Assembly (NCBI GenBank): GCA_031272995.1
Contig: JAISSY010000182.1
Span: 1-32,352, forward strand
Direction: 5' to 3'
From: Azoarcus sp.
GTDB lineage: Bacteria; Pseudomonadota; Gammaproteobacteria; Burkholderiales; Rhodocyclaceae
DNA: 32,352 nucleotides
Shown: positions 3,865 through 12,311 of the stretch, piece by piece
Numbering within the stretch: position 1 is the first letter of the stretch
Layout of the letters: the number at the start of each line of letters is the position of its first letter
Program-made: the position numbers and the translations under genes
Notes under the pieces: model-generated
Databases searched by the model: none
What the model was told of the DNA's origin: nothing
The model's input: the letters and a program-made list of their open reading frames with translations, nothing else

Positions 3865-5973
3865 TTGCCTACAGCAACCAAAAAAACCTTCGCCTGGGGC
3901 GCGCACACCGTCACGCTCGAAACCGGCGAAATCGCCCGTCAGGCCGGCGGCGCCGTGCTCGTCAACATGGACGACACCGTCGTCGTCGCTTCGGTCTGCG
4001 CTTCCCGCGACGTGCGCCCCGGGCAGGATTTCTTCCCGCTCACCGTCGATTACGTCGAGAAGTTCTACGCCGCCGGTCGCATCCCCGGCGGCTTCTTCAA
4101 GCGCGAAGGCCGTCCGACCGAGAAGGAAACGCTCACTTCGCGCCTGATCGACCGCCCGATTCGTCCGCTCTTTCCGGACGGCTTCTACAACGAGGTGCAG
4201 GTGATCGCCATCGTGCTGTCGCTGAACCCCGAAGTCGACGCCGACATCCCGGCGATGATCGCCGCCTCTGCGGCGCTGGTGATTTCCGGCGTGCCGTTCA
4301 ACGGCCCCATCGGCGCGGCGCGCGTCGGCTACGCCAACGGCCAGTACATCCTCAACCCCACCGCCACCGAGTTGCAGACCAGCCAGTTGAATCTTGTCGT
4401 CGCCGGCACCGAAGCGGCGGTGTTGATGGTGGAATCCGAAGCGCAGGAGCTTTCCGAGGAAGTCATGCTCGGCGCGGTCGTTTTCGGCCATGAACAGGCG
4501 CAACACGCCATCCGCGCCATCAACGAACTGGTGGAAGTCGCCGGCAAGCCGGAATGGGACTGGCAACCGCCGGCCAAGAACGAGGCGTTGATCGCCCGCG
4601 TCACCGAACTGGCGCGCGCCGATCTCGAACAGGCTTTCGCCCTCACCGCCAAGCAGGCGCGCACCACGCGTCTGGCGGAAATCGAAAAGGCGACGCTGGC
4701 GGCGGTGGTCACCGACGCCGAGGACAGCCCGTCCGAGAACGACGTCAAGGAAATCCTCTTTTCGCTCGAAGCCAGCATCGTGCGCGGACGCATCCTTGCC
4801 GGCGAGCCGCGCATCGACGGCCGCGACACCCGCACCGTGCGCCCCATCGACATCCGCACCGGTGTGCTGCCGCGCACCCACGGCTCGGCGCTGTTTACGC
4901 GCGGCGAGACGCAGGCGCTGGTGGTCGCCACGCTCGGCACCGGGCGCGACGAGCAAATCATCGACGCCATCGCCGGCGAGTACCGCGAAAACTTCATGCT
5001 GCACTACAACTTCCCGCCCTTCTCCACCGGCGAAACCGGCCGTTTCGGCGGCACCAAGCGCCGCGAAATCGGGCACGGGCGCCTCGCCAAGCGGGCGCTG
5101 CTCGCGGTGCTGCCGAAGCCGGAAGATTTCTCCTACACCATCCGCCTCGTCTCCGAAATCATGGAGTCGAACGGCTCCTCGTCGATGGCATCGGTGTGCG
5201 GCGGCTCGCTCGCCCTGATGGACGCCGGCGTGCCGACCAAGGCGCACGTCGCCGGCATCGCCATGGGTCTGATCAAGGAAGGCAACCGTTTCGCGGTGCT
5301 CACCGACATCCTCGGCGACGAAGATCACCTCGGCGACATGGACTTCAAGGTGGCGGGCACCGAAAACGGCGTCACCGCCCTGCAGATGGACATCAAGATT
5401 CAGGGCATCACGCGCGAAATCATGCAGGTCGCCCTGTCGCAAGCCGGCGAAGGCCGCCGCCACATCCTCGCCAAGATGAAGCAAGCCATCGAAGGCGCGC
5501 GTGGCGAAGTCTCGGAATACGCGCCGCGCATGATCACGCTGAAGATCAACCCGGAAAAAATCCGCGACGTCATCGGCAAGGGCGGTTCGGTCATCCGCGC
5601 CATGCAGGAAGAAACCGGCACCGTCATCGAAATCGAGGATGACGGCAGCGTCACCATCTCCAGCGTCAGTTCCGAGGGCGCGCAGGAAGCGAAGCGCCGC
5701 ATCGAGGAAATCACCGCCGAGGTGGAAGTCGGCAAGGTCTACGAAGGCACCGTGCAGCGTCTGCTGGATTTCGGCGCCATCGTCAACATCCTGCCCGGCC
5801 GCGACGGTCTGCTGCACATTTCGCAGATCGCCAACGAGCGCGTGAATAACGTCTCCGACTACGTGAAGGAAGGTCAAGTCGTGCGCGTGAAAGTGCTCGA
5901 CACCGACGAACGCGGCAAGATTCGCCTGAGCATGAAAGCCTTGCTGGAACAGGCTCCGAAGGCCGAATCGTGA
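3865..5973 (+). CDS. pnp: Polyribonucleotide nucleotidyltransferase
   Basis: Two RNase PH domains plus KH/S1: [41 protein letters not shown]...[19 protein letters not shown] start at 3865. Confidence 0.98.
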
Positions 5974-6099: not shown

Positions 6100-6104
6100 T
6101 ATTG

Positions 6105-6129
6105 AAGGGGGTGCGTATCGCACCCCCTT
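6105..6129 (+). terminator. Hairpin terminator downstream of tRNA-Asn
   Basis: Perfect 11-bp stem AAGGGGGTGCG-TAT-CGCACCCCCTT; only a weak T-tract follows. Confidence 0.6.
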
Positions 6130-6158
6130 GCGCTTTCCGCCCCTCACGCGTTCCTGCC

Positions 6159-7214
6159 GTGTCTGAGTCCCGTGCAACGCCTTCGCGCCCGTTTCGTGTC
6201 GCCGTCAACGGCTATGGCCGCATTGGGCGCTGCTTCGTGCGCGCCATTCATGAGGTCGGGCTGACTGACGTGCTGGAGGTGGTGGCGATCAATGAACCGG
6301 CCGGACTCGCCAGCGTCGCGCATCTGACGCGCTTCGACTCCACGCATGGACGCTTTCCGGGTACGGTCGCGGTCGATGGCGACGATTTGTTGCTCGAAGG
6401 GCGACGTATCGCGGTCACGCACGCGCAGACGCCGGAGGGCGTCGATTGGCGCGCGTTGGGACTGGATCTCGTCGTCGAATGTTCGGGGCGTTACACCGTG
6501 CGCGAGCAGTTGCAACGCTTTCTCGACGCCGGCTGCCCACGGCTGCTGCTCTCCAACCCCGGCGCGCACGCGCAGGACGTCGACGCCACGGTGGTGCACG
6601 GCGTCAGCCGCACGACGCTGGACGAAAGCGTGCGACTGGTTTCCGCCGCTTCCTGCACCACCAACGCGGTGGTGCCGGTGCTGGCGCTGTTGCAGGAGGA
6701 AGTCGGCATTGAACGGGCGCTGCTCACCACCCTGCACTCGGCGATGAACGACCAGCCGCTGATCGACGGCTACCATCACCCGGAACTCGCGCGCACGCGC
6801 TCGGCGATGCAGTCGATCATTCCGGTGGCGACCGGGCTGGCGCGCGGCGTCGAACGGCTGTTGCCGGAATTGGCCGGCCGGGTCGAGGCCAAGGCGATTC
6901 GCGTCCCGACCCACAACGTCTCAGCCATCGACATGGTGCTCACCCTGCGCGCCGACGTCAGCGCCGAGCGGATCAACGACCTGCTGCGCGCGGCGGCGCA
7001 AGGCTCCTACCGTGGCCTCATCGACTGGTCGGACGCGCCGCACGCCTCAATCGACTTCAACCACGACCCGCACTCGGCCATCGTCGACGGCAGTCAGACG
7101 CGCGCCTGCGGGCCGCGCATGGTGAATCTGTTCGTATGGTTCGACAACGAATGGGGCTTCGCCAACCGCATGGTGGAAGTGGCGCGCAACTGGCTGGAAG
7201 CCGCCAGACCCTGA
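6159..7214 (+). CDS. epd: Glyceraldehyde-3-phosphate / D-erythrose-4-phosphate dehydrogenase family
   Basis: FRVAVNGYGRIGRCFVRAI...SAASCTTNAVVPVL...TTLHSAMNDQPLIDGYHHPELARTRSAMQSIIPVATG...FVWFDNEWGFANRM; the MNDQ...SAMQSIIPV segment favours Epd over GapA. Likely GTG start at 6159. Confidence 0.8.
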   Translation: MSESRATPSRPFRVAVNGYGRIGRCFVRAIHEVGLTDVLEVVAINEPAGLASVAHLTRFDSTHGRFPGTVAVDGDDLLLEGRRIAVTHAQTPEGVDWRALGLDLVVECSGRYTVREQLQRFLDAGCPRLLLSNPGAHAQDVDATVVHGVSRTTLDESVRLVSAASCTTNAVVPVLALLQEEVGIERALLTTLHSAMNDQPLIDGYHHPELARTRSAMQSIIPVATGLARGVERLLPELAGRVEAKAIRVPTHNVSAIDMVLTLRADVSAERINDLLRAAAQGSYRGLIDWSDAPHASIDFNHDPHSAIVDGSQTRACGPRMVNLFVWFDNEWGFANRMVEVARNWLEAARP

Positions 7215-7233: not shown

Positions 7234-7258
7234 AAAGCCCCCGAAAATCGGGGGCTTT
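7234..7258. terminator. Bidirectional terminator between epd and PEP-CTERM gene 1
   Basis: AAAGCCCCCGA-AAA-TCGGGGGCTTT, perfect 11-bp stem between convergent genes. Confidence 0.85.
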
Positions 7259-7281: not shown

Positions 7282-7899
7282 TCAGGCACGACGACGGCGA
7301 CGCGCCACTGCGCCGACCACCGCCAAACCGGCCAACAGCATGGCGTAGGTTTCGGGTTCGGGAACCGCGACCGCAGAGATGTCGTCCAGCGCCCAGTGAC
7401 CGCCGGAAGGCGCCCAGTTCGGCGGGAAAACATCCGAGTTATTGACGAAACTGATCGAGAACGAGTCGATGTTCTGCCACGAACTGTCGAAGGTCACCAG
7501 ATGCGCAGCGGTATCCGTAAAGGTCACGACCACATCCGTAGCGACCTTGGCGCCATCCTTGAAGCCTTCGATGGTGTAGGTGACGTTGTCCGACCACACG
7601 TTGCCAAGCACGAAAGAATTGAGGTCGAAAGCGTCGCCATAAACGTAGTTGAAGACCGACGGCTGATTTTCCATGTATGGGTACGCGACGTTCGAACCTT
7701 CCGAATACCCGCCCACGGCGTAAAAGCCACTGGAGGTATCCTGCCCGGCGCCATCGACGATACCGACCATATTGGTGTCGTACGTGAAATATGGAGCGGC
7801 GCTGCCGTTTTCGAAATTGACCACGAAGGCATCGTCGGCTTGGGCAACACCCATGCAGAACAACGCAGGCAGGGCGAACAGACACAGTTTCTTGTTCAT
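7282..7899 (-). CDS. PEP-CTERM sorting-domain protein
   Basis: MNKKLCLFALPALFCMGVAQA signal peptide; C-terminus VPEPETYAMLLAGLAVVGAVARRRRRA (PEP motif, TM segment, Arg cluster). Start at 7899. Confidence 0.92.
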   Translation of the reverse strand: MNKKLCLFALPALFCMGVAQADDAFVVNFENGSAAPYFTYDTNMVGIVDGAGQDTSSGFYAVGGYSEGSNVAYPYMENQPSVFNYVYGDAFDLNSFVLGNVWSDNVTYTIEGFKDGAKVATDVVVTFTDTAAHLVTFDSSWQNIDSFSISFVNNSDVFPPNWAPSGGHWALDDISAVAVPEPETYAMLLAGLAVVGAVARRRRRA

Positions 7900-7945: not shown

Positions 7946-7961
7946 AGCATAATCCGTGCCT
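7946..7961 (-). promoter_or_regulatory. Sigma-54 (-24/-12) promoter of PEP-CTERM gene 1
   Basis: Minus strand AGGCACGGATTATGCT vs consensus TGGCACGN4TTGCW; GG and GC 12 nt apart; -12 GC 48 nt from the ATG. Confidence 0.7.
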
Positions 7962-8160
7962 CGAAAACAGTCATAAAAATTGCGAAATTATTCAACCCTT
8001 TAAGGCGCACTCAGCAGAATCAAAACCGGGTCGCAAAAAACTTGTAAAAAAACCCGACACTTTTCTGTGAAAAACCGCCGCAGCGCGCCACGCAAGCCGT
8101 CCACCATAAGGAACATACGACACCATTGGCGGCATGTGACAAATTACGCGCATCGAATAA

Positions 8161-8185
8161 AACGGGAAGGCGATGCCTTCCCGTT
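8161..8185 (-). terminator. Terminator of PEP-CTERM gene 2
   Basis: Perfect 11-bp stem AACGGGAAGGC-GAT-GCCTTCCCGTT; minus-strand reading continues CCCGTTTTATT. Confidence 0.8.
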
Positions 8186-8231
8186 CGTCGAGCCGACCCG
8201 ACAAGCCGTCTTGTCGGAAAAATTTACAAAC

Positions 8232-8924
8232 TCAGGCCGTCTTGCGGCGGCGGCTCAGACCGAACCCGGCCAGACCGACGCCAAGCAGCGCCAACACGCC
8301 CGGCTCGGGCAGCGGATGGTCGTTTTCATTGATCACCAGAGCGCCGAGGACGAATTGTTCGCCCCAATCCCCCGCGGCATAAAAGTCGGGGTCGTAGACG
8401 ATGTCGCCGCCCTTCTCTACGACGAAGCGCGAGATGTTGTCCCAGTTCAATTCTTCCAATACCGCATCCAACCCCACGAGGGCGCTGTCTTCATAGAGCA
8501 GTTGCCCGTCGGCGCCGAAACCGTAGAAGTACAGGGTTTGCGTGCCCCACGCGGAAGCGACGGAGAAAGAGGTGAGGTCGAAGGTGCCGCCGACGCCGTC
8601 GAGGATGTACTCGAAACTCATCCCCGGCCCGCCGCCCCAGTTAATTGCGACCGTGGAATCGGGAGTAAGCGCGGCGACGTTGTCGTAACCGGAGGGTTTC
8701 AGCAATGGGCAGGCGTTCGCGTATTGTTCGCACCCGGCCGACACGTCGAGAAAGGTCGTGATGAACGTGCGCCCGTCCTGAACGTATCTGGCGGTCGAAA
8801 AGTAAGGCGCGGCGGAGCCGCCGTAACGGTCGTCGCCGGGAACGCCGAACGTCACCAGCGTGGCCTGCGCGGCGCTCGACGCCAGCACAAGAACCAAAGC
8901 GAGGGGAAGGGATTTTTTGTTCAT
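8232..8924 (-). CDS. PEP-CTERM sorting-domain protein
   Basis: MNKKSLPLALVLVLASSAAQA signal; C-terminus PLPEPGVLALLGVGLAGFGLSRRRKTA. ATG at 8924; the 8936 start would be TTG. Confidence 0.92.
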   Translation of the reverse strand: MNKKSLPLALVLVLASSAAQATLVTFGVPGDDRYGGSAAPYFSTARYVQDGRTFITTFLDVSAGCEQYANACPLLKPSGYDNVAALTPDSTVAINWGGGPGMSFEYILDGVGGTFDLTSFSVASAWGTQTLYFYGFGADGQLLYEDSALVGLDAVLEELNWDNISRFVVEKGGDIVYDPDFYAAGDWGEQFVLGALVINENDHPLPEPGVLALLGVGLAGFGLSRRRKTA

Positions 8925-8970
8925 GATTTCTTTCAATACTTAAACGATAAATTATTCGACGCCCTGATTA

Positions 8971-8986
8971 AGCATATTCCGTGCCG
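8971..8986 (-). promoter_or_regulatory. Sigma-54 (-24/-12) promoter of PEP-CTERM gene 2
   Basis: Minus strand CGGCACGGAATATGCT; same 48-nt distance from -12 GC to ATG as for gene 1. Confidence 0.7.
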
Positions 8987-9163
8987 CGCATTTATTCGCA
9001 TGAAATACACTGACGATTCATTGCTTTAGCCACGATTTGGCCGTAACGGCGCGCAAACGAAGCGCTAAGGTGTAAAAAAAACTGACGAGGCTTTTGGCAT
9101 AAAACGGCAATGCCGACAACAAATCTGGATGCAGCCGAATTCAGCCGCGCGGGCAAAAACAAA

Positions 9164-9252: not shown

Positions 9253-9435
9253 TCAGGATTCCGGCGGCTGGCTTTTGAGCCAGTCGCGCATGATGGCGTT
9301 GATCCGCGTCTGCCACCCTTTTCCGGTGGCGCGCAGACCTTCCAGCACGTCGATGTCCATACGCAGCGAAACCATTTGCTTCACGGGTCGCGTATAGGGC
9401 GGACGTCCTCTCCGTGGTTTTACTACTTCCGGCAT
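9253..9435 (-). CDS. BrnA-like antitoxin (DUF4415-type), no adjacent toxin
   Basis: RPVKQMVSLRMDIDVLEGLRATGKGWQTRINAIMRDWLKSQ, matching the BrnA-family motif of the type 'D.DVLE.FRATGKGWQTRIN..L..WL'. Confidence 0.7.
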   Translation of the reverse strand: MPEVVKPRRGRPPYTRPVKQMVSLRMDIDVLEGLRATGKGWQTRINAIMRDWLKSQPPES

Positions 9436-9839
9436 GGCTACAACCCCCCTTAGTTGCAGTTGTCTGGTTTGTCGTACCGCGACCCCTGTCGCGAGCCGTC
9501 AAAAATGTTACTGGTAGTATTTACAGAATTATAAGGCCAATAAAATTCAGCGACATGACAAAAAATGTAACTGTTGCGGCATGGTGCCATCATGGTCGTT
9601 TTTCCTCCGTGGTTCGATCTCCGGGCGCGACTTTCGGGGAAGCGTTCGCCCCGAAACCCATTTCACGCTTGGTACTTATTTAGGACACCCACGCCGGCAG
9701 CGTGTTCCCGCTAGATGCGAACCGCGCGATTATTCCAGCCAATTTGCTGCGGTTCGAGAATTTATCACGAATTCGACGCTCAACTTCCCGTGTCAAATGT
9801 CGTAGACAAACGTGACCCATCTCCAACAGAGACCCAACG

Positions 9840-10991: not shown

Positions 10992-12311
10992 TTACGAACT
11001 GCTGCTGCTCAGCGACGCCAGTTGTTGCGTCAGGTACGAACTGGTCGAATTCATGCTCGCCATCAGCGTATCGAGGGCGCTGAACTGCGAGCGATAGCGC
11101 GCCTCCACCGATTCCAGCCGCGTTTCCAACGCCGTCTGGCGTTTTTCCAGATTGGTGACGCTGGTCTTCAGGCTGTCGGTGGCCGATTGCACCGTCCCAC
11201 CGGTGGTGATGAGCTTGTCGACGCCGCTGTTGAAGCGCGAGCCGATTTCGCTGGTGAAATTCGCCACCGCCGCCGGATCGTTCGCCACCGCCTTGGCGAG
11301 CTTGTCGGCGTCCAGCGACAGCGTGCCGTCCGAGGTGAAGGTGATGCCGAGCGAGTTGAGCGACAGGCCGCTGGCGCTTTGTTCGTTGACCAGGCTGCGC
11401 AGCGCGGTCTGGGTTTCGCGCAGCACGCGATGGCCGTTCAGGGTGCCCGCCTCGCCGGTTTCGGAATCGTAGGAGCCGAGCGATTTGACGCTCGACACCA
11501 CGGCGTTGAACGCCGTGACGAAGGCGTTGAGACTTTCCTTGATCTTGTCGCCGTAGTCGGCGGTCACCGAAACCGTCGTCGGCGAACCGGCGTTGGTCGC
11601 CTTCAGGTTCAGGGTCACGCCGGCGACGGCGTCCTTCACCGTGTTCGATTCGCTGGTGATGCTGATGCCGTCGAGCTTGAATTGCGCACTCTGCGCGTTC
11701 TGTATCGTCGTTTCCGTTGCGCCGGTCGTGGCGCCGCCGCTGACGGTGAAGTTGTTGCTCGCGCCTTCCTTGCCGGTCAGCACCAGATATTGATTGCCAC
11801 TGCCGTCGTTGACCACCGTGGCGGAGATACCGGAGTCGGAACTGTTCACGGCGTTGGCCATCGACTCCAGCGTGTTGCTGGCCGCAGTGAAGTTGTAAGT
11901 CGTCCCGCCGACGGTGATGTCGAGTTGCTGACTGGCGTCGAGACCCTTAAGGCTGGTCTTTTGCGCCGTCGCCAGTTGCGACACTTCGAGGCTGTAGCTG
12001 CCGGCGATCGCGCCGGTTCCGGCCTCGACCCCCGCCACGCTTTCGTTGCCGACCTTGCCGGTGAAGGTGCCGAACTTGTCGAGCGCCGTTTGCAGCGTCG
12101 CCGGCTGCAAATTCTTCGCCGCCGTTTGCAGCGCCGACAACTTGCTGGTCAGCGTGCCGAGCGCGGAAATCTTGGTGTTGTAGGAGGAGAGCTGCGTCTT
12201 GAGCGTTTCGAGCGGCTGGCGCTCGACGTTCATCAAGCCGGTGACCAGCGATTCGAGATCCAGTCCGGACCCCACTCCGAGCGAGCTCCAGGTTGAGCTG
12301 ACGGTTGCCAT
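10992..12311 (-). CDS. fliD: Flagellar hook-associated protein 2 (filament cap)
   Basis: VSSTWSSLGVGSGLDLESLVTGLMNVERQPLETLKTQLSSYNTKISALGTLTSKLSALQTAAKNL; between fliS and flaG. Confidence 0.96.
   Translation of the reverse strand: MATVSSTWSSLGVGSGLDLESLVTGLMNVERQPLETLKTQLSSYNTKISALGTLTSKLSALQTAAKNLQPATLQTALDKFGTFTGKVGNESVAGVEAGTGAIAGSYSLEVSQLATAQKTSLKGLDASQQLDITVGGTTYNFTAASNTLESMANAVNSSDSGISATVVNDGSGNQYLVLTGKEGASNNFTVSGGATTGATETTIQNAQSAQFKLDGISITSESNTVKDAVAGVTLNLKATNAGSPTTVSVTADYGDKIKESLNAFVTAFNAVVSSVKSLGSYDSETGEAGTLNGHRVLRETQTALRSLVNEQSASGLSLNSLGITFTSDGTLSLDADKLAKAVANDPAAVANFTSEIGSRFNSGVDKLITTGGTVQSATDSLKTSVTNLEKRQTALETRLESVEARYRSQFSALDTLMASMNSTSSYLTQQLASLSSSSS

Follow-up and report, generated by a model that had tools for sequence, protein, structure and literature searches.

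The window that we analysed is a 32,352-nucleotide stretch of Azoarcus sp. DNA, and it contains two genes for PEP-CTERM proteins, a kind of protein that is secreted and sorted to the cell surface. The two, here called gene 1 and gene 2, lie in tandem on the minus strand. By translation, gene 1 (7282..7899, ATG at 7899) encodes a protein of 205 amino acids, with the signal peptide start MNKKLCLFALPALF and the sorting end VPEPETYAMLLAGLAVVGAVARRRRRA, and gene 2 (8232..8924, ATG at 8924) encodes a protein of 230 amino acids. The PEP-CTERM sorting signal, which consists of a C-terminal PEP motif, a transmembrane stretch, and a basic tail, is present in both. Gene 1 scored 34.7 bits against PF07589 (cut-off 20.7) and 26.9 bits against TIGR02595 (cut-off 16); gene 2 scored 26.4 bits against PF07589 and was also above the cut-off for TIGR02595. 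We considered and rejected membership in the PepA family (NF033554), for which the two proteins reached 32 and 29.3 bits, in the C-terminal part only, against a curated cut-off of 80. The predicted structure of gene 1 is a beta sandwich (pLDDT 86), and its best matches among solved structures are mostly carbohydrate-binding modules, with low TM-scores of 0.5 or less. Such a predicted fold would be compatible with a role in an exopolysaccharide matrix. The window neighbours include polynucleotide phosphorylase-like (3865-5970), glyceraldehyde-3-phosphate dehydrogenase-family (6102-7211), and flagellar cap (fliD, 10992-12308) genes, and we noticed no exopolysaccharide genes adjoining the pair among them. 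Directly upstream of gene 2, positions 9258-9437 of the minus strand encode a BrnA antitoxin-like protein (PF14384, 63 bits); we saw no PrsR box before this gene on inspection by eye.

Genes 1 and 2 are spaced about 330 nt apart and each has a terminator-like hairpin behind it, identified from sequence and fold on the minus strand. The hairpin 3' of gene 2 (8161..8185) is followed by TTTT, and the other lies 3' of gene 1 (7234..7258). Because a hairpin follows gene 2, the sequence suggests that the two genes are separate transcripts. Each would thus be a single-gene transcript after a long intergenic region.

The initial annotation placed a -24/-12 site in front of each gene, with the -12 GC exactly 48 nt from the ATG in both cases, and this description is accurate. 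On the minus strand, gene 1 is preceded by AGGCACGGATTATGCT (7946..7961) and gene 2 by CGGCACGGAATATGCT (8971..8986), each with the -24 GG and -12 GC of a sigma-54 promoter and with 46 nt between its end and the ATG. Counted from the C of the -12 GC to the A of the ATG, the distance is 48 nt at both genes; the final T of GCT leaves 46 nt to the ATG. Scoring the bare -24/-12 pattern proved uninformative. TGGCACG-N4-TTGCW with up to two mismatches matched six times in the window versus 6.5 expected, and the exact core GGCACG-N5-TGCW matched 14 times in the genome versus 18 times for a reversed-pattern control, so that neither was above chance. The sites gain their significance from context. The genome to which the window belongs is a 2.3-Mb draft of 189 contigs (93% complete), and our genome-wide statements about it come from pattern and family searches plus selected stretches. 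It has 13 PEP-CTERM matches above the Pfam cut-off, plus one below the cut-off with a true C-terminal motif, and in 8 of the 10 PEP-CTERM genes with intact 5' ends a GGC-N8-WGCH site ends 38-57 nt before the ATG.

Further upstream, each gene has the other half of its promoter, a PrsR box that the initial annotation overlooked. We derived the consensus of this box, TGTCG-N6-TTTACA (11 scored bases), from the genus. The box of gene 1, TGTCGGGTTTTTTTACA (8043..8059, minus strand), has 11 of 11 consensus bases and lies 82 nt upstream of the -24 GG, and that of gene 2, CGTCAGTTTTTTTTACA (9071..9087, minus strand), is weaker and degenerate, with 9 of 11 bases, and lies 85 nt upstream of the GG. A second, exact box, TGTCGGAAAAATTTACA (8212..8228, plus strand), is inverted; it comes directly after the stop codon of gene 2 and lies 312 nt before the ATG of gene 1. 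Four homologous loci (L219, L220, L222, L224) likewise have an inverted box, at a distance of 309-313 nt, and in L218 the distance is 238 nt.

This arrangement has been described before. Of 167 proteobacterial PEP-CTERM genes in Haft et al. 2006 (PMC1569441), 99 have in front of them a 17-nt motif 1 with TTTACA at its end, then a spacer averaging 62.8 +- 10.6 nt (range 32-92), and then a motif 2 that is a -24/-12 site; by matching phylogenetic profiles, the authors linked this arrangement to PrsR, PrsK, and PrsT. Both window genes have all of these parts: a 17-nt box ending in TTTACA upstream of motif 2, a distance of 82 or 85 nt from TTTACA to GG that falls within the 32-92 nt range, and the three Prs proteins encoded in the genome. 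A prsT-prsR-prsK cluster on contig C188 scored above all curated cut-offs (PrsR 746 bits versus 503, PrsK 826 bits versus 300, and the adjacent PrsT 673 bits), and the family search also identified RpoN (472 bits). Genes 1 and 2 are therefore two instances of the Haft et al. 2006 PEP-CTERM promoter class. The circuit has been published in other floc formers: the pepA gene of Aquincola tertiaricarbonis RN12 is RpoN1-dependent and has a mapped start site and a -24/-12 promoter (PMC9850573), and, as summarised in PMC9012009, the PrsK-PrsR system of Zoogloea is needed for flocs and for PEP-CTERM expression. Control of genes 1 and 2 by RpoN with PrsK/PrsR, which the initial annotation had proposed, is thus well supported as a prediction by the PrsR boxes at both genes, the rpoN, prsK, prsR, and prsT genes, and this literature. 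Attributing such genes to RpoN and PrsR is no discovery, since this kind of promoter has been known since 2006.

Conservation beyond this genome bears on whether the -24/-12 sites could be chance matches, with the genes transcribed from ordinary sigma-70 promoters. This is what the null results for the 16-mer pattern alone, in window and genome, would lead one to expect. However, the sites are placed before 8 of 10 PEP-CTERM genes, and box and sigma-54 site are kept together in 14 of 17 same-genus homologues. A genus search for a PrsR box followed after 40-100 nt by GGC-N8-TGCW found about 95 pairs, spread over 20 of 22 genomes, and none with the reversed-pattern control. We consider chance matches extremely unlikely, and we confirmed both sigma-54 sites as real.

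We then asked what accounts for the shared geometry of the two promoters. The initial annotation reasoned that, because the proteins differ in sequence, the identical geometry looks like selected co-regulation. The first step does not hold, since the proteins are homologous: BLASTP aligned gene 1 with gene 2 at E=3e-9 and 27% identity, and an alignment revealed invariant positions common to genes 1 and 2 and 17 same-genus homologues. Two other genomes of the comparison (G001 and G010) also have such tandem pairs, and in the tree gene 2 clusters with the upstream gene of these pairs (support 100/99). Outside the genus we found no close gene 1 orthologue in the named genomes searched, and matches were mostly C-terminal. 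Genes 1 and 2 are old, diverged tandem duplicates whose order is conserved in three genomes; we take the duplication to be old on account of the low protein identity of 27% and the 100/99 support with which the clade of gene 2 separates.

The second step, that selection holds the distance between promoter and start codon, fares no better. The two window promoters do have exactly the same distance, and distances across this genome concentrate at 38-57 nt, yet those in the orthologous tandem pairs are 70/43 (G001) and 37/51 (G010), and they span 37 to 70 across 14 homologues. Equal distances occur in 4 of the 91 pairs of homologous promoters among these 14 (4.4%), a rate at which equality arises by chance. 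That both distances are 48 nt is a coincidence of little weight: a leader of about 40-60 nt is loosely typical and exact equality is not maintained, and a selected ATG distance is very unlikely as the explanation. Recent copying of a whole unit, gene and promoter together, is also unlikely, if less so. The genes are tandem paralogues in an order conserved in three genomes, and their box-to-promoter gaps are alike, as such copying would leave them; against it stand the age of the duplication given above and the intergenic sequences, which cannot be aligned outside the motifs and have no extended upstream similarity. Common descent explains the shared architecture, and its survival still needs selective maintenance. 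What looks selected instead is the spacing from enhancer to promoter, which the initial annotation overlooked.

Of the 14 homologues that keep both elements, 11 have 83-87 nt between box and GG; the remaining gaps are 74, 94, and 97 nt. Read from the DNA, the gaps in the genus fall into five classes, 50-54 (63 sites), 61-67 (12), 72-76 (7), 82-87 (13), and 93-94 (2), with nothing between them. The search for box plus sigma-54 site, extended to 399 genomes of the order, found pairs in 100 genomes and five control matches. Among the matches listed per genome, 144 promoters from 57 other genomes of the order, a sample and no census, have gap modes at 42, 53, 64, 75, 86, and 97 nt. Among these 144 listed pairs, the circular concentration R at a period of 11.0 nt was 0.735, versus at most 0.30 in 5000 jittered sets. 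The phasing persisted when we took one pair per genome among the pairs listed (mean R 0.645, null maximum 0.40) or kept a single gap for each of the 48 downstream protein families (mean R 0.625, null maximum 0.42). Single protein families include members one or two turns apart, such as 64/75 and 74/84/94. We re-read 90 sites from the DNA and the gap classes were unchanged; 72 of these 90 promoters precede a PEP-CTERM-like ORF. We read the period of 11 nt, slightly above 10.5, as the helical repeat. Quantisation of the spacing in whole helical turns across the class is statistically firm. The mean of 62.8 nt in Haft et al. corresponds to the main 64-nt class, and the text of that paper (PMC1569441) makes no mention of helical phase or of integration host factor (IHF). 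The window gaps of 82 and 85 nt belong to the 8-turn class (82-89), gene 1 at its lower edge.

Searches for the IHF consensus WATCAANNNNTTR pointed to a third element between box and promoter. Among 90 promoters from other genera, 62 spacers (69%) contain the consensus with at most one mismatch, versus 13.5 +- 3.1 in dinucleotide shuffles, and 17 contain a perfect match, versus 0.8 +- 0.8. Flanking DNA of equal length has an IHF-like site in 3 of 90 segments on the downstream side and in 2 of 37 on the upstream side (3-5%). The sites prefer certain positions upstream of the GG, 32-34 or 43 nt in reversed orientation and 20-22 nt in forward orientation. Genus spacers gave a similar picture (64 of 96, versus 18.4 +- 4.0). 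At gene 1, ATTCAACCCTTTA (7990..8002, plus strand) has one mismatch to WATCAANNNNTTR and lies 42 nt upstream of the GG; its orientation is opposite to that of the gene, and its register is that of homologous promoters in the same spacing class. At gene 2, the degenerate ATTCATTGCTTTA (9016..9028, plus strand) has two mismatches and lies 43 nt upstream of the GG, in the same register as at gene 1. Neither window site is significant on its own. A role for IHF in the class is a strong inference from sequence, and in the window it is only weakly visible.

The same spacers could instead be intrinsically bent or HU-bound DNA that resembles the IHF consensus by accident. They are A+T-rich, and the gene content of the draft leaves room for this explanation: IHF alpha (ihfA) was found at 164.5 bits (cut-off 111), while the three HU/IHF-family matches of the 93% complete genome include two HU-like genes and no ihfB. 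The three genes are at L360-L362, and the IHF alpha one stands beside a phenylalanyl-tRNA synthetase-like gene. Accidental resemblance would not, however, readily produce the excess over dinucleotide shuffles (62 versus 13.5 +- 3.1; perfect matches 17 versus 0.8) or the fixed positions (reversed 32-34 and 43, forward 20-22), and permuted control consensus patterns gave 6-18 matches for four of five and 35 for one. We regard bent or HU-bound DNA as a possible explanation, the less likely of the two, and keep IHF as the preferred candidate. IHF-assisted looping is known in other sigma-54 systems (PMC7057263). In the literature searched, we found no paper that treats PEP-CTERM together with IHF, and no report of either phased spacing or an IHF-like site for PEP-CTERM promoters.

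The searches also touched other genes. A search of this genome for pairs of box and sigma-54 site at gaps of 45-75 nt left out genes 1 and 2, whose gaps of 82 and 85 nt exceed this range. Eight genomes of the genus encode, behind a PrsR box and sigma-54 site in phase at 51-52 nt, a small protein with a BrnA-antitoxin-like C-terminal part (in this genome G000:C126:1319-1755, L234; elsewhere L255, L271, L288, L292, L296, L312, L316). The BrnA_antitoxin Pfam match (36 bits) comes from the copy in this genome only, and the other seven copies share a sequence motif with it. By its promoter, this gene, which is no PEP-CTERM gene, would be a conserved member of the regulon. Another sigma-54 site in this genome (G000:C127:9940-10099, L235) has a PrsR box with 10 of 11 bases at a gap of 64 nt and an exact box at a gap of 128 nt, and the gene behind it encodes a secreted-looking protein with a trypsin-like protease domain. 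Conversely, among the PEP-CTERM genes on contigs C121, C154, and C144, two are without a sigma-54-like site near the ATG and the C144 gene has a site and no PrsR box; part of the PEP-CTERM family is therefore probably under other control.

We conclude, with a probability of roughly 90%, that genes 1 and 2 are tandem-duplicated, separately transcribed genes, each with a Haft-class PrsR/sigma-54 promoter and a bent spacer. What we observed of it are the sites at both genes, the genes for the regulators, the quantised spacing across the class, and its IHF-like element. RNA polymerase with sigma-54 would wait at the -24/-12 site until the kinase PrsK activates the response regulator PrsR by phosphorylation. 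Phosphorylated PrsR would then bind TGTCG-N6-TTTACA some 8 helical turns (82 or 85 nt) upstream, and a bend in the spacer DNA would carry it onto the polymerase, where its ATPase would open the promoter. Across the class, IHF probably makes the bend, and PrsR would have to sit on a fixed face of the helix, because the spacing varies by whole turns. We infer that binding, phosphorylation, looping, and RpoN dependence apply in Azoarcus sp. Points that we count against this reading are the 9/11 box of gene 2, the one and two mismatches of the window IHF-like sites, the position of the 82-nt gap of gene 1 at the edge of its class, and the missing ihfB. For the order as a whole, PEP-CTERM promoters are probably a helically phased unit of three parts (PrsR box, IHF site, and sigma-54 promoter), in which the spacing changes in steps of one turn, from 4 to 9 turns, and IHF keeps a fixed register.

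PEP-CTERM proteins and exopolysaccharide hold bacterial flocs together, activated-sludge treatment relies on flocs, and the PrsK/PrsR switch decides whether PEP-CTERM proteins are made. The window contributes two clear members to this regulon. The comparison yields a rule that can be tested, namely spacing in whole turns together with a likely IHF site. It sharpens regulon prediction and predicts promoter-killing insertions, and the class supplies many natural variants for the study of bacterial enhancer looping. If the rule is true, the PrsR regulon would be readable from sequence as a strict grammar, and IHF would be a third, unreported regulator of extracellular-matrix PEP-CTERM proteins.

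The arrangement resembles several known systems. At nif, Pu, and other sigma-54 promoters that IHF assists (review: PMC7057263), an IHF site between activator site and promoter bends the loop, as proposed here for the class, whereas IHF is unreported for PEP-CTERM promoters in the literature searched. Aquincola RN12 pepA (PMC9850573) is also a PEP-CTERM gene with a -24/-12 promoter, mapped in Aquincola, and a predicted upstream enhancer; in contrast, the NCBIfam model does not class the window proteins as PepA (32 and 29 bits versus 80), and the window promoters are predicted from sequence. Loops at the LuxO-driven sigma-54 enhancers of the Vibrio qrr genes tolerate insertions and deletions of a whole helical repeat (PMC4740811). 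This tolerance was read from natural sequence there as it is here, although the present case involves another activator, other genes and taxa, many unrelated protein families, and an IHF-like site. With the Haft et al. 2006 class itself, the window promoters share the 17-nt box ending in TTTACA, a spacer of 32-92 nt, the -24 GG/-12 GC site, a single PEP-CTERM gene behind a long intergenic region, and prsK-prsR-prsT in the genome. The spacer, given for that class as 62.8 +- 10.6 nt, resolves in our comparison into separate length classes that differ by single helical turns, and most spacers contain an IHF-like site.
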